From contig JAQIBY010000027.1 of NCBI GenBank assembly GCA_027858835.1, positions 1 through 56,257 on the forward strand: a DNA stretch of 56,257 bases. The letters run 5' to 3'. Positions 10,183 to 47,901 of this stretch are shown piece by piece; position 1 is the stretch's first letter, and each line of letters starts with the position of its first letter. The notes beneath the pieces were generated by a model. The model searched no databases and was not told the DNA's origin. It saw only the letters and a list, made by a program, of their open reading frames with translations. Position numbers and translations under genes: made by a program. Origin of the DNA: Bacteroidales bacterium (GTDB taxonomy: Bacteria; Bacteroidota; Bacteroidia; Bacteroidales; ML635J-15).

Positions 10183-10533
10183 ATGAATGAAAAAGTACAA
10201 TTATCAGATGATATTAAGCAGATGGCTGCATATGCCAAGGCGATGAGCCATCCGGTGAGGGTTTATATTTTGCAAAAATTAGCTAAAATGGATGCCTGTT
10301 GTTACAGTGGAGATTTAGTTGATGAATTACCAATCGGCCGCTCGACTTTATCTCAGCATCTTAAAGAATTAAAATATGCCGGATTAATTCAGGGCGAAAT
10401 TCAACCCCCGTACATAAAATATTGCATAAATGTAGAAAATTGGGAAAAAGCAAAGGCTTTATTTGAGCTGCTCTTTTCTGAAAAAGTGCAAAATCAATCA
10501 TGTAAAATTAAAACATTAGAAAATGGAAATTAA
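10183..10533 (+). CDS. arsR: ArsR/SmtB-family repressor 1
   Basis: 116 residues. The winged helix-turn-helix is typical: MSHPVRVYILQKLA (residues 21-34), recognition helix GRSTLSQHLKELKYAGLI (52-69) and wing. Metalloid-binding thiols are probably C39 and C40 (MDACCYSGDL) near the recognition helix, with C81 and C107 as further candidates; the pattern differs from the E. coli CVCDLC motif. It should leave its operator (10142-10177) on binding trivalent arsenic. It overlaps the next gene by 11 bp, so it is translated with it. Confidence 0.92.
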   Translation: MNEKVQLSDDIKQMAAYAKAMSHPVRVYILQKLAKMDACCYSGDLVDELPIGRSTLSQHLKELKYAGLIQGEIQPPYIKYCINVENWEKAKALFELLFSEKVQNQSCKIKTLENGN

Positions 10534-10766: not shown

Positions 10767-11189
10767 ATGAAAATGATGAAACGAATTATGATGTTTAGCT
10801 TAGCATTAATGTTGGCCTTTGCATGTGCTGACAAGCCAAAAGAGGATGAATCTAAAGCTGAAAATCAGGAGCAAATTGAGAAAACCGGTGATGTGAATGT
10901 TTATTATTTTCATACAAGCCGTCGTTGTGCGACATGTAATGCCGTTGAAGATGTGGCACGAGAATCTGTACAGGAGCTCTATGGGGACATGGTTGATTTC
11001 GCTGCCTATAATATTGAGGATGAGGACGGTGGAAAAATTGCAGAGAAAGTTGGCGTTTCTGGCCAGGCTTTGGTAGTGTGTTGCGATGGTGAACTTATTG
11101 ATTTAACAGGAGATGCGTTTATGCATGCCCGAAGTAATCCCGATAAATTGAAAGTGTTAATTCAGGAAACGGTGGATCCATTTTTGTAA
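10767..11189 (+). CDS. arsF: ArsF-family lipoprotein (nitrophenyl-arsenical reduction)
   Basis: 140 residues. Lipoprotein signal with LMLAFACAD (lipid Cys about 20), then an acidic linker. The thioredoxin-like core has VYYFHTSRRCATCNAVE (C54, C57) and QALVVCCDGE (C105, C106). This matches the family annotated as nitrophenyl compound nitroreductase subunit ArsF, described from arsEFG operons that act on nitroaromatic arsenicals such as roxarsone. Here it would be an envelope-anchored thiol protein. It is the third gene of the unit, followed by ArsG. The exact reaction is not proven by sequence; a thiol carrier or metalloid sensor role is possible. Confidence 0.82.
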   Translation: MKMMKRIMMFSLALMLAFACADKPKEDESKAENQEQIEKTGDVNVYYFHTSRRCATCNAVEDVARESVQELYGDMVDFAAYNIEDEDGGKIAEKVGVSGQALVVCCDGELIDLTGDAFMHARSNPDKLKVLIQETVDPFL

Positions 11190-11233: not shown

Positions 11234-11935
11234 ATGGAAGCGTTTTTGAGTGAAATACTCAGTAACAGTTCATTGCCTATTGTTACGGCTTTTCTGCTGG
11301 GAATAATGACAGCAATTAGTCCTTGCCCTTTGGCAACAAATATTACGGCAATCGGATTTATCGGAAAAGATATTGAGGATAGACGGCGTGTTTTTTTGAG
11401 TGGTTTAGTTTATACCCTTGGTCGGGCAATTGCCTATACGGCATTGGCTTTGATTATTTATGTCGGTGCCGACCAATTTAAAATTTCCGGCTGGTTTGCA
11501 AAATACGGAGAGAAAATCATTGGACCGTTGTTTATTATAATTGGTTTGTTAATGCTGGATTTTATTAAAATTAAATTCCCCGGCATGAATAAACTGACAC
11601 AATATTTTCAAAATAAGGGAGCTAAAAACTATTGGAGCGTTTTGCTTTTGGGCGTTGTATTTGCATTGGCATTTTGTCCTTATAGTGGAGTGTTGTATTT
11701 CGGCATGTTAATCCCATTGACAATTAGTAGCGCATCTGGCTTATACTTGCCTGTGGTGTTTGCAATTGCAACCGGAATCCCCGTAATTATTTTTGCCTGG
11801 CTGATTGCATATACTGTTTCCGGTGTTGGGAAAATGTACAATAATATTAAAACATTCGAGAAATGGTTTCGACGCATTATCTCTGTGGTATTTATTATTG
11901 TTGGGATATATTATGTCATTACGATTTATTTTTGA
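11234..11935 (+). CDS. arsG: ArsG-family permease (CcdA/DsbD-like membrane protein)
   Basis: 233 residues with six or seven hydrophobic helices. It has the DsbD/CcdA-type signature with cysteines in TM1 and TM4: TAISPCPLATNI near the N-terminus and ALAFCPYSGVLYFG near 150. It matches the family named ArsG (aromatic aminobenzyl-arsenical efflux permease) that goes with ArsF. An alternative reading is a transmembrane electron carrier that reduces the periplasmic ArsF-type proteins. The position directly after arsF supports a shared task. It is followed by a run of AAGTTGGT tandem repeats. Confidence 0.85.
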   Translation: MEAFLSEILSNSSLPIVTAFLLGIMTAISPCPLATNITAIGFIGKDIEDRRRVFLSGLVYTLGRAIAYTALALIIYVGADQFKISGWFAKYGEKIIGPLFIIIGLLMLDFIKIKFPGMNKLTQYFQNKGAKNYWSVLLLGVVFALAFCPYSGVLYFGMLIPLTISSASGLYLPVVFAIATGIPVIIFAWLIAYTVSGVGKMYNNIKTFEKWFRRIISVVFIIVGIYYVITIYF

Positions 11936-12018
11936 AAAGTTTGGCAAGTTGGTAAGTTTGGAAGTTGGTAAGTTGGTAAGTTGGTAAGTTGATAAGTTGA
12001 TAAGTTTGGAAGTTAGAA
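11936..12018 (+). repeat. degenerate tandem repeats of GGTAAGTT upstream of the S23 gene
   Basis: About ten imperfect copies of an 8-base unit (GGTAAGTT, with GATAAGTT and GGAAGTT variants) fill the gap between arsG and the four-helix-bundle gene. Reverse-complement versions (GTAACTTC, CTCAACTT) occur just after that gene at 12414-12453, so the gene is framed by oppositely oriented repeats. Confidence 0.8.
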
Positions 12019-12029
12019 ACCTAAAAATT

Positions 12030-12413
12030 ATGGCAAAAATTGAACGATTTGAAGATATTGAAGCTTGGCAGTTAGCCCGAGAGTTCGTTAAGGAAATGTT
12101 TCTTGTTTTCAGTGAGAAAAAACTAAAAACTGAGTTTGAATTAATGTCACAATTTAAAAGAGCGAACATTTCCATCATGAATAATATAGCTGAAGGATAT
12201 GGTCGATTTAGCAACGCTGATTTTATCCGTTTTCTTGATTATGCCAGCGCATCAGCCTCCGAAGTAAAAAGTATGCTGTATGTATTAGAAGATTTGCAGT
12301 TTATTAATTCTTCCGATGCAATGCGTTATCGTGACAAAGTTGATGTTATTCAAAGCAAAATCCTTGGGCTTATTAAATATTTAAGAAATCACAAAAAGAT
12401 TAAGAAAACCTAG
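12030..12413 (+). CDS. S23-type four-helix bundle protein (23S rRNA intervening-sequence family)
   Basis: 127 residues from the ATG at 12030; the frame is open upstream through the tandem repeats but that is not coding. Signature features are FEDIEAWQLAREF at the N-terminus and ANISIMNNIAEGYGR in the second helix, then FIRFLDYASASASEV. The family was first seen in intervening sequences of 23S rRNA and is abundant as solitary genes in Bacteroidota, flanked by AAGTTGGTAAGTT-like repeats as here. Function is unknown; it behaves like a passenger of a small mobile unit. It splits the arsG-arsP pair. Confidence 0.9.
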   Translation: MAKIERFEDIEAWQLAREFVKEMFLVFSEKKLKTEFELMSQFKRANISIMNNIAEGYGRFSNADFIRFLDYASASASEVKSMLYVLEDLQFINSSDAMRYRDKVDVIQSKILGLIKYLRNHKKIKKT

Positions 12414-12492: not shown

Positions 12493-13836
12493 ATGGAACG
12501 TAAAAAAGAAATAAGAATCCTGTTATGGATTGCCGCAGTGTTCGGAGTTGCATTTTTCATGCCAATAGAAAGTGCACGGTTTAAAGAGGCCATTATGGCG
12601 ATGTTTGATTTGGCAAAATGGTATGCACAAGAGCATGTGATTTTGTGTCTGCTACCTGCCTTTTTTATTGCCGGAGTTATTGCTGTTTTTGTGAGCCAGG
12701 GAGCTGTGATGAAATATTTCGGTGCGAATGCAAAAAAATGGTTGGCTTATACGGTTGCCTCAGTTTCAGGGACAATTCTCGCAGTATGTTCTTGCACCAT
12801 TTTGCCGCTATTTTCCAGTATTCACAAAAGGGGTGCGGGTTTAGGTCCTGCCATCGCTTTTCTTTATTCTGGTCCGGCAATTAATATCCTCGCAATTATA
12901 TTAACAGCCCGTATTCTCGGATTTGAAATGGGTATTGCCAGAGTCATTGGAGCCGTTGTTTTTGCGGTAGTAATTGGCTCAGTTATGTCACTAATTTATC
13001 GAAAAGAAGAGGCTGCAAAAAAAGAAGCTCAATTAAACTTTCCCGAAATCCCAGAAAAGCGCCCTATGTGGCAAACTGCTTTCCACTTCTTTACTTTAGT
13101 AGTAATTTTAGTTTTTGCAAACTGGGGAAAACCTGCTGAAGGTGTTACTGATGGAACATGGTTTTGGATTTGGGCTCATAAATGGTATATCACCGGATTT
13201 TTTGCATTGCTTTTGGGATATTCATTGATTAAAATATTGAAAATTAAATGGCAATGGGTAGCGATTTCTGCTGTGAGTGTGTTGGCGTCCGCATTTTTGG
13301 CATCAACATTTATCGATAATGAATCCTTTGTGTCGCTTGTTCCCATGCTTGTCGGAATCATTGCCTTAAGTTTAATGACAGTATTCGATAAACGTGATCC
13401 TGACAATAAAGAATGGGCGTTTTCCGCATGGGATTTTACCAAACAAATTATGCCGCTTTTGGCAATTGGGGTACTCGCTGCCGGATTTCTACTCGGATCA
13501 ACCCATGATGGCACTGCAATAGCAGGGATTATTCCTAATGAGTGGATTGCAAATCTCGTCGGTGGCAATTCACTCTTCTCAAACTTTTTCGCATCAATTG
13601 TCGGTGCATTCATGTATTTTGCAACCCTTACGGAAGTCCCGATTTTGCAGGGCTTAATCGCTGCAGGAATGGGAAAAGGACCAGCCTTGGCTTTATTATT
13701 GGCGGGTCCGTCACTTTCTTTACCGAATATTCTAGTGATTCGTGGCGTTATCGGCACGCAAAAAACATTGGTTTATGTTGGATTGGTTATCGTTATGGCA
13801 ACAATATCCGGCTTGATATATGGAGGTTTATTTTAA
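12493..13836 (+). CDS. arsP: ArsP-type permease (DUF318 / ArsP_1)
   Basis: 447 residues with about ten to twelve predicted membrane helices. The ArsP_1 (PF03773) core is obvious: AVCSCTILPLFSSIHKRGAG (about residues 96-115) and FLYSGPAINILAI, and again TEVPILQGLIAAGMGKGPAL with LLLAGPSLSLPN in the second half. ArsP proteins export trivalent organoarsenicals; other members of the fold move other solutes, so substrate is inferred from the arsR-arsF-arsG context. It is the long form with an insertion between the two halves. Its 3' neighbours are small redox proteins. Confidence 0.85.
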   Translation: MERKKEIRILLWIAAVFGVAFFMPIESARFKEAIMAMFDLAKWYAQEHVILCLLPAFFIAGVIAVFVSQGAVMKYFGANAKKWLAYTVASVSGTILAVCSCTILPLFSSIHKRGAGLGPAIAFLYSGPAINILAIILTARILGFEMGIARVIGAVVFAVVIGSVMSLIYRKEEAAKKEAQLNFPEIPEKRPMWQTAFHFFTLVVILVFANWGKPAEGVTDGTWFWIWAHKWYITGFFALLLGYSLIKILKIKWQWVAISAVSVLASAFLASTFIDNESFVSLVPMLVGIIALSLMTVFDKRDPDNKEWAFSAWDFTKQIMPLLAIGVLAAGFLLGSTHDGTAIAGIIPNEWIANLVGGNSLFSNFFASIVGAFMYFATLTEVPILQGLIAAGMGKGPALALLLAGPSLSLPNILVIRGVIGTQKTLVYVGLVIVMATISGLIYGGLF

Positions 13837-13929: not shown

Positions 13930-14328
13930 ATGAAACGTTTAAGCTTAATTTTAATTCTCGGCTTGTTTGGCATTACCAGCCTTTTTGCACAAAAAAATGT
14001 CAATTATGAAGTGCTTTATTTTAAAGCAAATTTATCTTGTTGTCAGGCACGCGCTTGCGATGCACTGCAAAAAGACATTGAAAGTACGCTTCAGTCTATT
14101 TTTGACGAAGAAAGTATCAATTTTAAAGTGGTGAAACTTGCTGATGAAGCGAATAAAGATTTGGTGGAAACTTATAATGCAAAATCTCAAACTGTGGTTT
14201 GCATTAAAACCAAACGAAAAAAAACATCATCGGTTGATTTGTCTGAAATTGTCAAACAGTACAGAATTCATCGTGACAAAGAAAAACTTGCAACTGCACT
14301 GAAAGCAGAAATTGTAAAAATGAATTAG
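13930..14328 (+). CDS. secreted divergent ArsF-like cysteine protein
   Basis: 132 residues. A cleavable signal peptide ends LFGITSLFAQ. The core lines up by eye with ArsF: VNYEVLYFKANLSCCQARAC (C37, C38, C43) corresponds to VNVYYFHTSRRCATC, and QTVVCIKTKRKK (C91) to ALVVCCDGE. The cysteine spacing differs from CxxC, so thiol chemistry may differ. It lacks the lipobox, so it is predicted soluble in the periplasm. A second CxxC thioredoxin follows 25 bp downstream, repeating the order thioredoxin/ArsF seen at the start of the unit. Function unknown. Confidence 0.7.
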   Translation: MKRLSLILILGLFGITSLFAQKNVNYEVLYFKANLSCCQARACDALQKDIESTLQSIFDEESINFKVVKLADEANKDLVETYNAKSQTVVCIKTKRKKTSSVDLSEIVKQYRIHRDKEKLATALKAEIVKMN

Positions 14329-14353: not shown

Positions 14354-14602
14354 ATGGCTGATTTAAATATCAAAGTGCTTGGTAGTGGTTGTCCAACTTG
14401 TGCAAAACTTGAAATTGCCTGTCGGCAGATTGTAGAAGAGAATAATCTGGATGCGGACATTGAGAAAATCACAAACATAAATGAGTTTGCAGATTATGGC
14501 GTCATGATGACTCCCGGATTGGTTGTCAATGGCAAAGTGTTGTCTCAAGGAAAAATTCCTGTAAAAAGCACTCTAGAGCGTTGGCTGTTTGATGCAATTT
14601 AG
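14354..14602 (+). CDS. second small CxxC thioredoxin (MTH895/TM0996-like)
   Basis: 82 residues, paralogous to the gene at 10523-10762: active site GSGCPTCAKL (C13, C16), then DYGVMMTPGLVVNGKVLSQG matching EYGVLQTPGLVINGKVLFSG. Cytoplasmic. Duplication of this gene within one unit suggests two dedicated electron routes, for example one for ArsG and one for ArsP or the secreted protein; that is inference. The next start codon is 68 bp downstream. Confidence 0.87.
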   Translation: MADLNIKVLGSGCPTCAKLEIACRQIVEENNLDADIEKITNINEFADYGVMMTPGLVVNGKVLSQGKIPVKSTLERWLFDAI

Positions 14603-14670: not shown

Positions 14671-16071
14671 TTGAAATATCTAATCATTCTATGTTTTTTA
14701 TTCATCACAGCCTTTGTAAATGCACAAAATGTCATTGAGCTTTCTGCGTCTGAAGCGCACGATATTATTTTGGATTTAAACCCTGATAATGCATCGCTGA
14801 TTGACGGACGCACAGAGGCAATGTATAACGAGGGACATATTGCAAATGCTGTAAATATCAATGCGTTTTTTACGGATGTTAATGATAAACTGAAACCGTA
14901 TTTATCCCGAAAACAATTGGTCGTATATTGTACAAATCAGAATCGGTCGCTGAAACTCATTGATGCTTTGGAGTCACTGAATTATGCCGGAGAAGTCATC
15001 TTCATTACTGATGGCATTACCGGCTGGAAAACAAGTGGTTATGGGTTGGTTGTTCCTGAAAAGTTAATTGTTGAAAATGAGATAGGAGTGAAGGAGCCAA
15101 CTGGCAAACTTACACCAATCGTGCAAGTTTTTGGTACTGCTGCTTATGATGTAAAAAATGAACTCTACGGATACAGTTTCGGTCGTGCCCACCTGGGGTT
15201 TCAGTATCAGTTCAACAATGACTGGAGCGCCAAAATGATTATCGACCGCGGAAGACCCACCTCCTTAGATAACATAAGCGTGATCGATTCTGCCGGCAAC
15301 ATGCTCAACGTAATTTATTCGTCCAAAGAAGGAAGTTATTACACCATGTGGCTGAAATTTGCCAGTCTGAGATGGCAGGTAAATGATAGGTTGTCCCTGA
15401 TTGGCGGAGCGCTGCTGCAGAACCATTACATCACGCAGGAGCGTTTCTGGGGTTTGCGATACGTTGCACAAACCTTTCAGGATATGTACTGGCATATCCC
15501 CAGTTCCGATTTGGGATTCCGTGCAAATTATAAACTGAACGATGTATTCAGCATTGATGCCGCACTGACAAATGGGGAAGGCCCCCGCGTAAAACAAGAT
15601 GCTTTCGGAAAAGTGAAGTATGCTGCAGGACTGAACATTAATCCTGGTGACAAGTTTCAATCCCGCATCTATTATCATATGCGTACATCAGTTGATAATT
15701 CATCAATCGAACAAATGGCCTCTGTTTTTGCAGGTTATCAATTCAGCGATAAATTCCGGCTTGGCGGTGAATTCAATTACATGAATAACCTGAACAATGC
15801 AAGCGGAACGGACAGCTACGGATTTTCAGTCTATTCAGCATATCAGGTAATTATAAATACCCAGATTTTTATTCGCTACGACCGTCTGCTCAACGAAACC
15901 GATAACACGGCCGCTTACAAGATGCCCAATGGAAACAGCCTCATCGGAGGGGTTTCCTATTCACCCTTAAAAGGCATAAACCTGTCCCTGAATTACCAAG
16001 CCTGGCTATCTGATGCTGAAAACAACACAGCTCAGAACAATATTCTTTTAAGCATGGAGTATAAGTTTTGA
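14671..16071 (+). CDS. rhodanese domain fused to an outer-membrane porin-like barrel
   Basis: 466 residues from a TTG start at 14671, chosen because a signal peptide (KYLIILCFLFITAFVNAQ) follows at once; the frame is open upstream to 14608. Residues about 22-125 form a rhodanese domain: DGRTEAMYNEGHIANAVNI and the active loop VVYCTNQNRS with its Cys. From about residue 140 to the end is a beta-barrel with aromatic girdles (YGYSFGRAHLGFQYQFNNDW), ending SMEYKF. The first third is AT-rich and the barrel part GC-richer, as though two genes were joined. It should place a sulfurtransferase in the periplasm beside a pore. No frameshift separates the parts. Confidence 0.78.
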   Translation: MKYLIILCFLFITAFVNAQNVIELSASEAHDIILDLNPDNASLIDGRTEAMYNEGHIANAVNINAFFTDVNDKLKPYLSRKQLVVYCTNQNRSLKLIDALESLNYAGEVIFITDGITGWKTSGYGLVVPEKLIVENEIGVKEPTGKLTPIVQVFGTAAYDVKNELYGYSFGRAHLGFQYQFNNDWSAKMIIDRGRPTSLDNISVIDSAGNMLNVIYSSKEGSYYTMWLKFASLRWQVNDRLSLIGGALLQNHYITQERFWGLRYVAQTFQDMYWHIPSSDLGFRANYKLNDVFSIDAALTNGEGPRVKQDAFGKVKYAAGLNINPGDKFQSRIYYHMRTSVDNSSIEQMASVFAGYQFSDKFRLGGEFNYMNNLNNASGTDSYGFSVYSAYQVIINTQIFIRYDRLLNETDNTAAYKMPNGNSLIGGVSYSPLKGINLSLNYQAWLSDAENNTAQNNILLSMEYKF

Positions 16072-16228: not shown

Positions 16229-16333
16229 TGTGGCGTTTCTTGGTGGCGAAATTTCTTCTTCAAATGTTATAATTTGATGTTTGGAATCAATTTCAAGCAG
16301 GAAATATTTATCACAAAAGCCACTGCCACTACA
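16187..16333 (-). pseudogene. gene-end remnant, family not recognised
   Basis: The minus strand reads in one frame CSGSGFCDKYFLLEIDSK, then HQIITFEEEISPPRN, then runs into the repeat and stops. The composition is protein-like, but there is no start: the frame closes about 30 bp inside the neighbouring DUF302 gene, from which it is offset by one frame. It looks like the last 35-40 codons of a lost gene, truncated on one side by the DUF302 gene and on the other by the dispersed repeat. Confidence 0.35.
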
Positions 16334-16802
16334 GTTTTTTGAATACGTTTTTGAATTTGGTATTTACTTCAGCTGCAATATCATTAAGCGCATTATTTTC
16401 AAACATTTGCATCAATTTTTCCGGATTGACAACAACCACTTCTGTTTCATCATCACTTACTTGCTTGATTATTAACTTGCAAGGTAGAAACACTCCGATG
16501 TTTTCTTCCTGCTGAATAGTTGCATAGGCATATTTGGCATTGCAAACGCCTAAAATGCGGTATGGTTGCATATCGGCACCTTCAATTTTATTGTTGAGGG
16601 TTTCTGACATATCAATTTCAGTAATAACACTAAACCCTTCCTCCTTGAGTGCGGTTTTGACTCGGGTGGTAACTTCTTCAAAATCTCCATCAACCGTTTT
16701 GCTGAAATAATATAATTCACTTGTCTTTTGTTCTTGGCTATTCTCGCATGATGAAAATCCAATCAGTAAAAACGCTAAAATTGTAAAAAATCCTGTTTTC
16801 AT
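16329..16802 (-). CDS. DUF302 lipoprotein 1
   Basis: 157 residues. Lipobox LIGFSSCEN. The DUF302 (TT1751-like) core is recognisable by ILGVCNAKYAYATIQQEENI and GVFLPCKLII, plus the tail NPEKLMQMFENNAL. DUF302 proteins are small alpha/beta proteins of unknown role, often in stress, sulfur or metal gene groups. It is transcribed opposite to the arsenic units and shares a divergent upstream region with the thioredoxin gene at 17105. ATTACAA (16833-16839) and TTGTAAT (16850-16856) form an inverted repeat in front of it that could be an operator. A second DUF302 lipoprotein is at 49930-50436. Confidence 0.85.
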   Translation of the reverse strand: MKTGFFTILAFLLIGFSSCENSQEQKTSELYYFSKTVDGDFEEVTTRVKTALKEEGFSVITEIDMSETLNNKIEGADMQPYRILGVCNAKYAYATIQQEENIGVFLPCKLIIKQVSDDETEVVVVNPEKLMQMFENNALNDIAAEVNTKFKNVFKKL

Positions 16803-17104: not shown

Positions 17105-17593
17105 ATGAAGAATAAAACAAATCGAAATGTTAAAATAAAACAATATTTGTCAATTGTCGGGATCCTCTTATCGGTATTGTTCTTTGTTGCCCTATTTGTT
17201 TTTAAAGATAAAATTGAGGATTTAAGCTCTGATATGATTAAACAGCAGACAGATTCGAGCATCATATCATCGACAGAGGTTTATATTGACTCTGTCTGGA
17301 ATTACACAAACAATGGATCAGACTATAAAATGACATTTCTGGAGTTCGGGGCAAAAAATTGTTCCGCATGCAAACGGATGGAAATTGTTTTAGAGGAAGT
17401 CCGTGAGAAATATCCGAATTATGTAAAGGTTGTATTTGTCAATGTTACATTACCACAAAATCAGGATATGTTGAATTATTTTGGAATCTCCATGATACCT
17501 ACACAGTTATTTCTGGATGAAGCCGGAAATGAGTTTTTTCGACACACAGGGTATTATTCAACGGAAGAAATTTGTAAATTAATTGCAAAATAA
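17105..17593 (+). CDS. membrane-anchored thioredoxin-like protein
   Basis: 162 residues. One N-terminal membrane helix (about 13-34, YLSIVGILLSVLFFVALFVF) leaves the rest in the periplasm. The thioredoxin-fold domain has FLEFGAKNCSACKRME (C86, C89) and the cis-proline strand GISMIPTQLFLDEAG. It resembles thiol-disulfide proteins of the thioredoxin_2/TlpA type. CSAC is an unusual active-site pair. It lies between the two arsenic units; it ends 18 bp before the operator of the second arsR and so is probably transcribed separately from it. Confidence 0.85.
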   Translation: MKNKTNRNVKIKQYLSIVGILLSVLFFVALFVFKDKIEDLSSDMIKQQTDSSIISSTEVYIDSVWNYTNNGSDYKMTFLEFGAKNCSACKRMEIVLEEVREKYPNYVKVVFVNVTLPQNQDMLNYFGISMIPTQLFLDEAGNEFFRHTGYYSTEEICKLIAK

Positions 17594-17610: not shown

Positions 17611-17641
17611 TAATGACGTATGTTTGCAACATAGAACATTA
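17611..17641 (+). promoter_or_regulatory. ArsR operator overlapping the -7 promoter (unit 2)
   Basis: A 31-bp dyad: outer arms TAATG (17611-17615) and CATTA (17637-17641), inner arms TATGTT (17619-17624) and AACATA (17628-17633), with equal 3-base gaps. The -7 element TATGTTTG (17619-17626) lies inside it. The ATG of arsR 2 follows 6 bp later. Symmetry and position indicate autorepression of the arsR-DUF1573-arsC-acr3 unit. Confidence 0.78.
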
Positions 17642-17647
17642 ACAGAA

Positions 17648-17980
17648 ATGACAAACAATAAATCATCAGAATTTAGTCAGAAGCAGCAAGAAATTGCGAA
17701 CTATTCCAGGATATTATCCCATCCTGCACGAATAGCGATCATACAATTGCTTGCCGAAGAAAAAGAAATAAGAACCGGTAATATTTCCGATTATTTGCCC
17801 TTGAGCAGAACAACCGTTTCACGCCACATAAAAGAATTGCGCTCAGCAGGTTTAATTCAAGGTACAATTGAAGGCTTAAAAATTCATTATTGTTTGGATA
17901 TAGAAAAGTTGCAGGAAATGAGATCGAGTCTAAATGCTTTTTTGGATAACTCAATTGATGATTTCACCTGCAGCTGTTAA
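17648..17980 (+). CDS. arsR: ArsR/SmtB-family repressor 2
   Basis: 110 residues from the ATG at 17648; an in-frame TTG at 17624 lies inside the operator and is rejected. The winged HTH is clear: LSHPARIAIIQLLA (residues 23-36) and SRTTVSRHIKELRSAGLIQG. It lacks the CC pair of arsR 1; its thiols are C82 and a C-terminal CSC (C108, C110), a different binding-site layout. This suggests different inducer preference, probably arsenite here since arsC and ACR3 follow. First gene of the second unit. Confidence 0.92.
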   Translation: MTNNKSSEFSQKQQEIANYSRILSHPARIAIIQLLAEEKEIRTGNISDYLPLSRTTVSRHIKELRSAGLIQGTIEGLKIHYCLDIEKLQEMRSSLNAFLDNSIDDFTCSC

Positions 17981-18033
17981 TGCGGAGAATTGATTTTACA
18001 AGAACCTATTATTAACAAGTAAATTATATTTTT

Positions 18034-18420
18034 ATGAAAAAGTTATTCATGTTATTAGCAATTATCAGTGTTTCAGCTTTGAGTCTTTCTGCTCAATATG
18101 TTGAATCTGAAAAAAACGAAACAATCGTGTTTAATCAGTTGGAGCATGATTATGGGACGATAACACAAGGTGCAGATGGAAACTGTGAGTTTGGTTTTAC
18201 AAATAATGGTCAAAAGCCTCTAGTGTTAAGTAATGTCAGAGCGTCATGCGGATGTACGGTGCCGACTTGGCCAAAAGAGCCCATTCAGCCCGGCGAAACA
18301 GGTGTGATAAAAGTCAAGTATGATACAAAAAGAGTGGGTTCATTCAATAAATCAATTACGGTAAGCTCTAATGCTGAAAATTCAACGGTTATCCTTAGAA
18401 TAAAAGGAAATGTAAAATAA
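18034..18420 (+). CDS. DUF1573 secreted protein
   Basis: 128 residues. The signal peptide is MKKLFMLLAIISVSALSLSAQ. The single domain is DUF1573, an Ig-like fold with the hallmark LSNVRASCGCTVPTWPKEPI followed by PGETGVIKVKYDTKRVGSF. Many Bacteroidota have such proteins; function is unknown but the conserved CGC invites a metal or metalloid role in the periplasm. It lies between arsR and arsC with short gaps (53 and 7 bp), so it is co-transcribed with arsenic genes. Confidence 0.88.
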   Translation: MKKLFMLLAIISVSALSLSAQYVESEKNETIVFNQLEHDYGTITQGADGNCEFGFTNNGQKPLVLSNVRASCGCTVPTWPKEPIQPGETGVIKVKYDTKRVGSFNKSITVSSNAENSTVILRIKGNVK

Positions 18421-18427
18421 TCGTCAA

Positions 18428-18847
18428 ATGAAAATACTGATTTTATGTACCGGAAACTCCTGTCGCAGCCAAATGGCTTACGGGTTTCTTAAATCAATGG
18501 ACAGCGGACTGACTATCCGCTCTGCCGGAACCGAACCTGCAACGCAAGTTAATCCCAAGGCAGTGCAAGTAATGCAGGAAATTGAAATTGACATTTCAAC
18601 TCACACACCGCACTTGGTAGATGAATATCTTTCCGAAACTTGGGATTATGTGATTACTGTGTGCGATGATGCCAATGAAACTTGTCCTGTGTTTTTGGGA
18701 AAGGTGAAAAACCGCTTACATATTGGATTTGAAGATCCATCATATGCCGTTGGGAGTGAGGATTTCATTATGAGCGAGTTTCGTCGCATAAGAGATGAAA
18801 TAATAACCGCATTTGAAATATTCTACAGGGAAAGCATAAAAAGATAA
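18428..18847 (+). CDS. arsC: arsenate reductase, thioredoxin-coupled (LMW-PTPase fold)
   Basis: 139 residues. It reduces As(V) to As(III) with thioredoxin as electron donor. The P-loop CTGNSCR places C7 and R13 in the CX5R motif. Two more cysteines, C79 (ITVCDDA) and C86 (ETCPVF), have the 7-residue spacing of the S. aureus type ArsC disulfide cascade. The AGTEPATQVNPKAV segment is standard. It is 7 bp after the DUF1573 gene and 4 bp before ACR3, which exports the product. Confidence 0.95.
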   Translation: MKILILCTGNSCRSQMAYGFLKSMDSGLTIRSAGTEPATQVNPKAVQVMQEIEIDISTHTPHLVDEYLSETWDYVITVCDDANETCPVFLGKVKNRLHIGFEDPSYAVGSEDFIMSEFRRIRDEIITAFEIFYRESIKR

Positions 18848-18851
18848 TGTT

Positions 18852-19883
18852 ATGGCAGAAAAGAAACAAGCACTTGGGATTTTCGAAAAATACCTGACAA
18901 TTTGGGTGGTCTTGTGCATTGCAGGAGGGATACTGATTGGCTCACTTGCAGGAGATTTTATGCAAGTGCTGAGTGGGTTTGAAATCTTTAAAGTCAATAT
19001 TCCGATTGCACTATTAATCTGGCTGATGATATATCCCATGATGTTGCAAGTGGATTTTTCAAGTATTAAGAATGTGAGAAAAACTCCAAAGGGATTAATT
19101 CTTACGCTCGTGGTTAACTGGTTGATTAAACCATTTACGATGGCGTTTTTTGCTTGGTTGTTCTTTTCTAAAATTTACGCCGCAATCATTAGTCCTGAAA
19201 TGGCCGGAGAATACATTGCCGGAGCAATTTTGTTAGGTGCAGCACCATGTACAGCCATGGTTTTTGTTTGGTCATATCTAACAAAAGGAGACCCGACTTA
19301 CACGCTGGTTCAGGTTTCTGTCAATGATTTAATTATACTGATTGCATTTGTGCCGATTGTTGGTTTGTTGCTCGGCATTACGAATATAACAATTCCTTAT
19401 GACACCTTACTCTCGAGTATTATCATATTTGTCTTAATTCCTTTAATTGCGGGCTATTTTACAAGTCGGAGTCTCATAAAAAAGCGAGGAGAAAGCTGGT
19501 TTAAACAAATCTTTCTGCCTAAGCTTAAGCCGATTAGTGTTTTGGCATTGCTCTTGACATTGTTGTTGCTTTTTGCGTTTCAGGGACCAAACATCCTTAA
19601 TAATCCACTGATAATATTGCTCATCGCTATACCATTGATAATTCAAACGTATTTTATCTTTTTTATCACATGGTTTACAGGGAGAAAACTGCGTTTGCCT
19701 CATGCAATTTGTTCTCCGGCTGCTATGATCGGAGCCAGTAATTTCTTTGAACTTGCTGTGGCGGTGGCAATTGCTTTGTTTGGATTAGACAGTCCTGCTG
19801 CATTGGTGACAGTTGTCGGTGTGCTGGTTGAGGTTCCTTTGATGCTCTCATTGGTTGCGCTTGCAAATAAATGGCGCTATTGA
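18852..19883 (+). CDS. acr3: ACR3-family arsenite efflux transporter
   Basis: 343 residues, about ten membrane helices. It pumps arsenite out using the proton gradient. Family marks are MIYPMMLQVDFSSI (TM2 end), GAAPCTAMVFVWSYLTKGDP with the essential Cys (C133) in TM4, and ASNFFELAVAVAIALFG near the end. Length is normal. Last gene of the second unit, directly after arsC. No clear terminator follows; 107 bp separate it from the kinase gene. Confidence 0.95.
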   Translation: MAEKKQALGIFEKYLTIWVVLCIAGGILIGSLAGDFMQVLSGFEIFKVNIPIALLIWLMIYPMMLQVDFSSIKNVRKTPKGLILTLVVNWLIKPFTMAFFAWLFFSKIYAAIISPEMAGEYIAGAILLGAAPCTAMVFVWSYLTKGDPTYTLVQVSVNDLIILIAFVPIVGLLLGITNITIPYDTLLSSIIIFVLIPLIAGYFTSRSLIKKRGESWFKQIFLPKLKPISVLALLLTLLLLFAFQGPNILNNPLIILLIAIPLIIQTYFIFFITWFTGRKLRLPHAICSPAAMIGASNFFELAVAVAIALFGLDSPAALVTVVGVLVEVPLMLSLVALANKWRY

Positions 19884-45827: not shown

Positions 45828-47087
45828 CTATTCCGTTTTGTACCCGAGTGAATTGATGGTTTCTTTGATTTTTTCCATGTCTAAATCATCGCCCTCAATG
45901 GAGGCGGATTTGTCGTTTAAATTCACTCGTACACTTTTTACAAAGGGTAAACTTTCAAGATTACTTTCTACACTTGTTTTGCAGTGATTGCATGTCATTC
46001 CTTCGACTTTAATTGTTTTTGTATCCATTGTATTGTCGTTTAAATTTATTATTGAATTATTTTTTATTTTTCGATATTTTTGGATGTATCCGTTTATTAT
46101 TAGCAGAATCAGTGTAATGCCTGAAGCGATTTGCCACCATGCTAAATTTCCAGCATGATCGTGTCCGAGATGTTGTTGTGCGATATTGGTAAACCAATGT
46201 GTCGGCAACACGTAATCAATCAATAAACCAAAGCCCAAAGCTCCGAAAATTATGGTGGCAAGATAAACCAGTAAACTGCGTTTTCCCAGGACTTTGCCTA
46301 TCATGGTGATGGTTGCGACATTGCTTGCAGGACCAGCCATAAGCAAAACAAATGCGGCACCCGGACTGATTCCTTTTAAAATTAAAACTGCTGCCAAAGG
46401 GATTGATCCTGTTGCACAAATGTACAATGGAACAGAAACTACTAAAATTAGCAACATTTGTAAAATTGGCGGCATGTTTAACATGTTAAAAAAATCATTG
46501 GGAATTAAGGCTGAAATGATGGCTGCCAAAACTAACCCGATTACTAACCATTTAGAAATGTCTTGAATGAAATCGACAAATCCGTAGCGGAAAACGCTGA
46601 TTATTTTTTGGGAAAAGCTTTGATTTTTTTTCATCGGCTTTTGATCTTGCACTTGTTTTTTTTCATGCTTGGTTACTTTGCTTGTAATCAGTCCGCCCGT
46701 GATTCCTGTAATCAGTGCCGCAATGGGTCTGAATAGTGCAAAGGGCAAGCCCATGAGTGAGAAGGTGGCAAGGATGGAATCAACCCCGGTTTGAGGCGTG
46801 GATATAAGAAAGGAAACCGTGCCTCCTTTTGATGCCCCGTTTTTGTAAAGTGCCGCTCCGGTTGGAATAACTCCACAGGAACATAATGGGAGAGGAACTC
46901 CGAGTAAAGAAGCCAGTGTGGCTGATTTGAGTGGCTTTCCACTAAAGTATTTCTGTATGTTTTTTGGCGAAATAAAGGCATAAAGCAGTCCTGCAAAGAA
47001 AAACCCTAACAGTAGATAAGGCGCCATTTCACTCAAAATCTTCACGAAATCTGTTAAAAAGCTGATGATATATTGTTGCACTTCCAT
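45828..47087 (-). CDS. SO_0444-type Cu/Zn efflux permease with C-terminal HMA domain
   Basis: 419 residues. The DUF318/ArsP_1 permease part (1-345) has LGVPLPLCSCGVIPTGAALY (about 62-81) and FLISTPQTGVDS in the first half and AVLILKGISPGAAFVLLMAG in the second. After a short linker a heavy-metal-associated domain follows (354-419) with GMTCNHCKTSVESNLESL. Such proteins are annotated as Cu/Zn efflux transporters. The HMA domain could load metal from the cytosol. It is paralogous in fold to the ArsP protein at 12493. Gene order with the HMA-AraC regulator upstream suggests metal-controlled expression. Confidence 0.88.
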   Translation of the reverse strand: MEVQQYIISFLTDFVKILSEMAPYLLLGFFFAGLLYAFISPKNIQKYFSGKPLKSATLASLLGVPLPLCSCGVIPTGAALYKNGASKGGTVSFLISTPQTGVDSILATFSLMGLPFALFRPIAALITGITGGLITSKVTKHEKKQVQDQKPMKKNQSFSQKIISVFRYGFVDFIQDISKWLVIGLVLAAIISALIPNDFFNMLNMPPILQMLLILVVSVPLYICATGSIPLAAVLILKGISPGAAFVLLMAGPASNVATITMIGKVLGKRSLLVYLATIIFGALGFGLLIDYVLPTHWFTNIAQQHLGHDHAGNLAWWQIASGITLILLIINGYIQKYRKIKNNSIINLNDNTMDTKTIKVEGMTCNHCKTSVESNLESLPFVKSVRVNLNDKSASIEGDDLDMEKIKETINSLGYKTE

Positions 47088-47108
47088 ATTGTTAGTTGTT
47101 TATAAATA

Positions 47109-47116
47109 CAAATTTA
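47109..47116 (-). promoter_or_regulatory. -7 promoter element TAAATTTG for the metal permease
   Basis: Minus-strand TAnnTTTG match 21 bases upstream of the ATG at 47087, inside the 97-bp gap after the regulator gene. It suggests the permease has its own promoter. Confidence 0.5.
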
Positions 47117-47184
47117 GGAAGTAAGCCATCAAAGCTTGTTACACAATTTTGGATATTAATTATAAGATTTCAGGTGGGCAAGTG

Positions 47185-47745
47185 TTAAATCTTGTCAAGT
47201 GCTTTTCGCTTATTTTCTTTCAAATTTTTAAAGTGGGAGGGGGTCATTCCCGTAACTTTTTTGAACTGATTGCTTAAATATGCAACACTCGAATAATTGA
47301 GTTGAAATGCGATTTCGCTTAAGCTTAATTCATCATAAATAAGCAGCTCTTTAACTTTTTCAATTTTTTGTAGGATATAATATTTCTCAATAGTAATACC
47401 TTCAACCTCTGAAAATAAGTTGCTTAGTTGACTGTAATCCCGGTTTGATTCCATGGATAAGTGATCTGATAAGGTGATCTCAAGTCGGTTGTTTTTTGTT
47501 TGTATTAAGTCAGTAATCAGATTTTTGATTTTCTCGATAGTCCTTGAGTTTTTATCATCCAATAAATCAAACCCGATGGATTGCAGCTCCTGTTTTAGTT
47601 GTGATTTTATTTCTGAGATATCATTTTCCTCAAGTTCAACTTCTCCCAAACCAATATGTATAGGGTGCAATCCAATGTTTTCCAGAATTGCTCTTACCGC
47701 CATTACACAGCGCGGGCAAACCATATTTTTGATGTGAATTTTCAT
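47185..47745 (-). CDS. AraC-family regulator with N-terminal HMA metal-binding domain
   Basis: 187 residues from the ATG at 47745 (the frame is open to 47853). Residues 1-70 are an HMA-like ferredoxin fold with KNMVCPRCVMAV (C10, C13). Residues about 95-187 are an AraC double helix-turn-helix (LSLSEIAFQLNYSSVAYLSNQFKKVTGMTP). It should sense Cu(I), Zn or a similar ion through the CPRC site and activate the adjacent permease gene downstream. The small size, with metal domain fused directly to the HTH, is recurrent in Bacteroidota. Confidence 0.88.
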   Translation of the reverse strand: MKIHIKNMVCPRCVMAVRAILENIGLHPIHIGLGEVELEENDISEIKSQLKQELQSIGFDLLDDKNSRTIEKIKNLITDLIQTKNNRLEITLSDHLSMESNRDYSQLSNLFSEVEGITIEKYYILQKIEKVKELLIYDELSLSEIAFQLNYSSVAYLSNQFKKVTGMTPSHFKNLKENKRKALDKI

Positions 47746-47901
47746 GTGTTTATGTGTTTTTGATATTAAAGAAACATTAAGACTAAGGATTTGTTTTAAA
47801 ATTGCTTTTATCCTGAGGTTTTTACAGTCTCGATATTCTGAGCCGGCACTCAATCCTCCATATTGCTGTAGTTTGATTCACAATCGGTGTTACAGCAAAA
47901 G

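Follow-up and report, generated by a model that had tools for sequence, protein, structure and literature searches.

A single gene of a Bacteroidales bacterium encodes an export signal, a rhodanese domain and a porin-type barrel as one polypeptide, an architecture we regard as practically certain. The gene lies on contig JAQIBY010000027.1 (assembly GCA_027858835.1), in the stretch of 56,257 nucleotides analyzed here and referred to as the window. It appears to combine a porin and a rhodanese, each of a known kind, in a way not previously described; a literature search found no paper on a rhodanese-barrel fusion. At a probability of about 0.5, the protein would serve an ArsR-controlled ArsEFG-ArsP detoxification operon as its outer-membrane channel and carry a tethered periplasmic sulfurtransferase reset by a relay. 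The two parts of this reading differ in strength. Judged from the encoded families, the barrel probably acts as the channel of an (organo)arsenic- or metal-detoxification operon, and a relay or sulfur-transfer step performed by the tethered rhodanese is a tentative proposal. The operon context of ArsR, ArsE, ArsF, ArsG and ArsP, absent from the first-pass annotation of this DNA, is the best clue to function.

Coordinates of the fused gene, its parts and the surrounding genes in the window
Feature	Position	Strand	Details and evidence
ArsR-type repressor (ArsR1)	10183..10533	+	CC + C: C39, C40, C81; Pfam
ArsF-family lipoprotein-like thioredoxin fold	10767..11189	+	CxxC; NF040494 84.6 bits, cut-off 60
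ArsG / DsbD_2-type membrane protein	11234..11935	+	C31 + C148; NF040495 316.7 bits, cut-off 200
ArsP/SaoE/SO_0444-type permease	12493..13836	+	CSC motif; PF03773 3e-72
Second, diverged ArsF-like protein	13930..14328	+	signal peptide; NF040494 40.4 bits, under cut-off 60
ArsE / MTH895 thioredoxin-like protein	14354..14602	+	CxxC; TIGR00412 91.6 bits, cut-off 62
Rhodanese-porin fusion gene	14671..16071	+	466 aa; single open frame of 466 codons from TTG at 14671 to stop at 16069-16071, no internal stops
Signal peptide, aa 1-19	14671..14727	+	type I, no lipobox; sequence
Rhodanese domain	14728..15045	+	PF00581, alignment, PDB profile match 6mxv 4.5e-24
Codon of active-site Cys87	14929..14931	+	sole Cys of mature window protein
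Variable linker/join between domains, ~22 aa	15046..15108	+	11-38% identity among fused relatives
Porin barrel, predicted 16 strands, C-terminal aromatic	15109..16068	+	profile, AF2, Foldseek, trees
Segment most simply read as exchanged between window lineage and congener L002/G1134	15091..16069	+	84.7% nt identity, bounded by join and stop codon
Membrane-anchored thioredoxin	17105..17593	+	PF00085; adjoins barrels in L034, L035, L040, L045, L046, L048, L004
Second ArsR, DUF1573-like, ArsC-family arsenate reductase, ACR3 arsenite efflux	17624..19883	+	

The first-pass annotation had described a signal peptide, a complete rhodanese domain with its active-site Cys and a full-length β-barrel in one frame, and each of these parts is borne out. 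The hydrophobic N-terminal signal ends in VNAQ^N, and Q19 in the cleavage region is invariant in the alignment of fused and free relatives. The rhodanese family PF00581 matches residues 36-121 (E 1.4e-12; 48.4 bits against a gathering cut-off of 22.2), a threshold also passed by the four other fused proteins found (L002, L003, L034 and L078); at E 1e-4, no other gene in the window's genome matches PF00581. When the barrel is excised at 15088, it scores 30.3 bits against the BBP2 porin family (PF07642; cut-off 26.2), a match not reported for the full-length window protein; the full-length proteins of L002 and L003 pass the cut-off, and 3 of the 21 members of the barrel family match BBP2 at E 0.01. 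AF2 modeling of the barrel alone from a four-sequence alignment gave 16 strands at low confidence (pLDDT 56, pTM 0.51), and the best PDB matches of this low-confidence model in Foldseek are the OmpK36, OmpC and OmpF porins (E 1e-9, prob 1.0). The full-length fusion, modeled from four sequences, reached a pLDDT of 47, too low to place the rhodanese relative to the pore. Together with the signal at residues 1-19, the protein possesses an aromatic C-terminal residue (SMEYKF), as for insertion by BAM. Since a signal peptide followed by a barrel with an even number of strands leaves the N-terminal domain on the periplasmic side, it follows from the predicted topology that the rhodanese would be periplasmic.

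The gene follows a run of ars genes. ArsE, ArsF and ArsG of the window all score above their NCBIfam cut-offs under an ArsR gene, the combination used here to recognize an ArsEFG operon. The permease belongs to the wider ArsP_1 family and falls below the equivalog cut-offs for SaoE (111.3 of 325 bits) and SO_0444 (116.7 of 300 bits). Downstream, ACR3 scores 390 bits (cut-off 282.8), and the ArsC family 127.8 bits, under its cut-off of 174.3. Across the operons compared, the Cys residues that such a relay would need are conserved in ArsR (CC + C, 12-13 of 13), ArsE (CxxC, 10 of 10), ArsF (CxxC, 14 of 14), ArsG (both Cys, 14 of 14) and ArsP (CSC, 14 of 14). ArsG and/or ArsP lie beside the barrel in 12 of 16 stand-alone barrel loci (L035-L050), and most of these 12 carry ArsR/ArsE/ArsF too; the barrels of L042, L047 and L053 have no adjoining ars genes. 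The typical order is ArsR-ArsE-ArsF-ArsG-ArsP-barrel, after which a DGC-domain protein and a membrane thioredoxin often come next. The barrel is thus a conserved member of ArsR-ArsE-ArsF-ArsG-ArsP operons in this bacterial order, usually as a stand-alone protein and fused in a minority. Promoter and terminator scans returned no usable signal.

Several further features of these neighborhoods were recorded. The window encodes a DUF302 lipoprotein-like protein (16329-16802, − strand) in the interval that separates the fused gene from the thioredoxin downstream. In L034 (10763-11131), L040, L041, L046 and L004, the barrel gene has immediately after it a gene for a DGC-domain (PF08859) protein or an ORF that starts in the same way; the window has none at that place. 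In L045 (10660-11646), the porin is accompanied nearby by another type of predicted outer-membrane barrel (Phenol_MetA_deg, start ...QCCSAGNP...), and ORFs with similar starts occur in L040, L044 and L048. Between ArsG and ArsP, positions 11941-12413 of the window hold a tandem array of nine copies of the 8-bp unit TTGGTAAG with a 24-bp period, and this TTGGTAAG array abuts and overlaps the start of a four-helix-bundle/23S rRNA-IVP gene (TIGR02436, PF05635). Elsewhere in the window (45831-47877, − strand), a second ArsP_1 permease is assigned to the SO_0444 Cu/Zn equivalog (362.6 bits, cut-off 300); it bears a C-terminally fused HMA/CopZ-like metal-binding domain and is neighbored by an AraC-type regulator whose N-terminal part contains an HMA-like CPRC stretch.

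From the families present, ArsR would sense a soft metal(loid) at its three-Cys site, ArsP and ArsG would clear the cytoplasm of thiophilic (organo)metal(loid) species, and the barrel would provide for the exit or exchange of these species across the outer membrane. More speculatively, Cys87 of the tethered rhodanese may hold a persulfide or metal-thiolate at the periplasmic face of the pore, from which the domain could pass sulfur to, or scavenge, whatever crosses. Its reset might draw on electrons that run from cytosolic thioredoxin or ArsE to ArsG, with two membrane Cys of the CcdA/DsbD type, and on to the periplasmic CxxC protein ArsF. Because most relatives have no fused rhodanese, the domain is not essential to the system. 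A more ambitious version, which we consider a long shot, is a processing porin whose redox-reset sulfurtransferase at the inner mouth would thiolate or persulfidate exiting metal(loid)s; in this version the cap would have been attached repeatedly, to distinct barrel lineages, because selection favored the coupling itself.

The same genes could instead constitute a persulfide or sulfur-stress system, in which an ArsR resembling SqrR or BigR would sense sulfane sulfur, the rhodanese and thioredoxin-like proteins would handle periplasmic polysulfide or thiosulfate, and the porin would pass small sulfur anions. We judge this unlikely. A rhodanese, a DsbD-type protein and thioredoxins do occur together, and the closest free signal-peptide rhodanese (L051/L060) adjoins an ArsR-like gene, but ArsE, ArsF and ArsG exceed arsenic-family cut-offs, and an ArsC-family reductase and ACR3 lie just downstream. 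The regulator itself points the same way: ArsR1 scores against both BigR and TsoR, yet its 28.6 bits for BigR are far under the cut-off of 155, and its conserved Cys are the CC + C set.

Less probable still is that the rhodanese serves as a non-catalytic cap, whether a plug, an assembly aid or a thiol ligand that gates the pore. Single-domain sulfurtransferases usually display a CxxGxR-like active loop. The window protein has a six-residue loop, Y86-C87-T-N-Q-N-R92, with Cys followed by Arg, and this C-T-x-x-x-R pattern departs from the usual motif, as might be expected of a cap. Linker and rhodanese also diverge fast (43-50% identity), most barrels have no cap, and rhodaneses encoded as separate cytosolic proteins in the same operons mostly have the Cys replaced, by Asp or by another residue. 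Against a passive role stand the catalytic residues themselves: D45, G46, R47, C87, R92, D114 and G115, the active-site Cys and Arg among them, are invariant in the five fused proteins and the two closest free rhodaneses, despite identities to the window domain of 35-42% across fused and free forms, and Cys87 is the only Cys that the mature window protein retains.

These separate rhodaneses associate the two protein types in another form. Of the 19 genomes whose barrel is unfused, 5 (G089, G233, G354, G369 and G094) have a separate rhodanese-like gene no more than about 2 kb from it, compared with a chance expectation of about 0.1 by our own estimate from a density of about 5 rhodaneses per genome, so the rhodanese-barrel association recurs. 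The operon-encoded proteins have no signal peptides, the catalytic Cys is missing from most of them, and their clade is distant from that of the fused domains; they are therefore not equivalent to the fused domain. The cytosolic rhodanese-like proteins of L034 (12803-13213), L036 (10862-11338), L040 (10684-11094), L044 (185-592, − strand) and L050 (10129-10560), mostly with Asp or another residue for the catalytic Cys, share a conserved C-terminal GxCxC-type motif and are possibly a metal-binding, non-catalytic rhodanese family.

The search for other proteins of the same architecture, proposed in the first-pass annotation, retrieved the order signal peptide-rhodanese-linker-barrel from four further genomes: L002 (=G1134), a congener of the window; L003, a Prolixibacteraceae MAG; L034 (=G297); and L078 (=G1122). 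L002 (JAQIDD010000013.1) and L081 (G1134:C287) are the same 3625-base contig, which the genome collection places in the window's genus; the title of the JAQIDD010000013.1 record, Candidatus Delongbacteria, is doubtful given that placement. Barrel relatives at E 1e-60 or better occur in 21 of 393 genomes of the order, window included, with two of the 21 fused; within the window's own family, the barrel is present in 5 of 31 genomes and fused in three of these five. The architecture is unusual, as had been supposed. The class and phylum samples gave no match at E 1e-40 beyond the window's genome, a limit that would miss weak relatives, and the plasmid collection gave none. Three of the four fusions inspected for this have in-frame start codons near the join (in the window, TTG126 and GTG140), none of them preceding a signal peptide, and each of the stand-alone barrel homologues inspected starts with a hydrophobic leader of its own; a barrel started internally would have no signal peptide and so could not be exported. 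That the fused frame is an artifact of assembly, or that the barrel is translated separately, is thus virtually excluded, for the base-composition step and the two in-frame start codons that might suggest it are outweighed by the recurrence of the architecture in five genomes from separate, independent assemblies and by the missing leader.

A change in base composition at the join had been taken as the mark of a recent fusion. The change is real, with GC3 rising from 0.345 to 0.489 (GC1+2 merely from 0.385 to 0.417); SecA and ArsP of the window have GC3 values of 0.33-0.35, and the L002 barrel 0.53. A smaller GC3 step is found in L003 and L034 and none in L002. The inference of a recent fusion is rejected, and DNA comparison points instead to exchange of the barrel. 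Between the window and L002, protein identity is 45% for the rhodanese and 84% for the barrel, and DNA identity is 84.7% for the barrel against 71.7% for ArsP and 74% for SecA. Among identical residues, the same codon is used in 77% of cases in the barrel, compared with 51% in the rhodanese, 41% in ArsP (p 1e-19 against the barrel) and 51% in SecA (p 1e-14). Most simply, the barrel half would have been exchanged between the window's lineage and its congener after the genomes diverged, which would account for the composition step in the window; given the smaller steps in L003 and L034, part of it may be intrinsic to the barrel. The similarity to the L002 barrel begins at 15091, within the interval (15080-15120) where the join had been placed. 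The fusion itself is not recent: it is shared by five genomes whose rhodanese halves are just about 35-50% identical, and the divergence across fusions, around 45% identity, indicates that the joining is old, repeated or both.

Phylogenetic analysis complicates the history further. Grouping all fused barrels in one clade is rejected by the barrel tree (delta lnL 172, p-AU 0.00035), in which the L078 barrel pairs with an unfused barrel at 100/100 support; an AU test on barrels without L078 does not reject a single clade (0.113). Resolution is poor in the rhodanese tree, on which a single fused clade is not rejected (p 0.342). The barrel tree thus speaks against one origin of all fused barrels, which the rhodanese tree would allow, and it calls for several gains, moves or losses of the cap, at least three changes in all. 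These could be repeated attachments, recombination that carried the cap between barrels, or repeated losses, each of which would fit. A simple merger of adjoining genes finds no support as a source: the rhodaneses encoded next to barrels are cytosolic proteins of a distant clade, most of them without the catalytic Cys, and it is with free signal-peptide rhodaneses from other loci (L060, L061) that the fused domains cluster.

Little is known of how metal(loid) detoxification proceeds at the outer membrane, ars systems having been described up to the inner membrane. The present finding names a barrel of ArsEFG-ArsP operons in one bacterial order, and the enzyme domain fused to that barrel opens a possible periplasmic sulfur or thiol step at the pore to direct testing.

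Among known systems, ArsEFG is the nearest for the operon: it is ArsR-controlled and detoxifies roxarsone and nitarsone, according to the account of Chen et al. 2019 given in PMC9144182. The window adds an ArsP-type permease and ArsR to its own ArsE, ArsF and ArsG, and the described system, as far as that literature goes, includes neither a rhodanese nor an outer-membrane barrel. YgaP and other exported or membrane-bound single-domain rhodaneses share the fold and active-site region (PDB 5hbl/2moi for YgaP, 6mxv); YgaP differs in being an inner-membrane protein, and none of these rhodaneses carries an outer-membrane barrel. A rhodanese tied to a DsbD-type electron carrier is found in TsoB, a rhodanese/DsbD fusion selenoprotein of the Tso operon (Haft and Tolstoy 2025, as reviewed in PMC13188914). 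Two NCBIfam families of the Tso naming series, TsoR, an ArsR-type regulator, and TsoX, a thioredoxin-like protein, are weakly touched by ArsR1 and the first ArsF of the window. As summarized in that review, the partner in TsoB is DsbD rather than a porin and the chemistry is selenocysteine-based, whereas the window protein has no selenocysteine; the latter does not match NF045694 (TsoB) and scores as a generic rhodanese only.

The closest parallel is found in the extHIJKL cluster of Geobacter sulfurreducens, where the rhodanese-like lipoprotein ExtH and the outer-membrane porin-like ExtI likewise place a rhodanese and a barrel in one gene neighborhood. Without ExtI, the reduction of selenite and tellurite is impaired (PMC5877670). 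The protein bears a weak likeness to phosphate porins (PMC5877670), and the window barrel profile touches OprP (E 0.035), a comparison of the two barrels by description only. The differences are that ExtH and ExtI are encoded by two genes, that ExtH is a 49-kDa lipoprotein treated as extracellular, and that the ext cluster is cytochrome-based and lacks ArsEFG and ArsP. In 10 of 18 Geobacter ext clusters, the rhodanese has been replaced by a different one while the barrel is kept (PMC6148476), which resembles the modularity of cap and barrel in the window's family. By analogy with this replacement, the repeated shuffling of cap and barrel suggests a recurring partnership between rhodaneses and porins.
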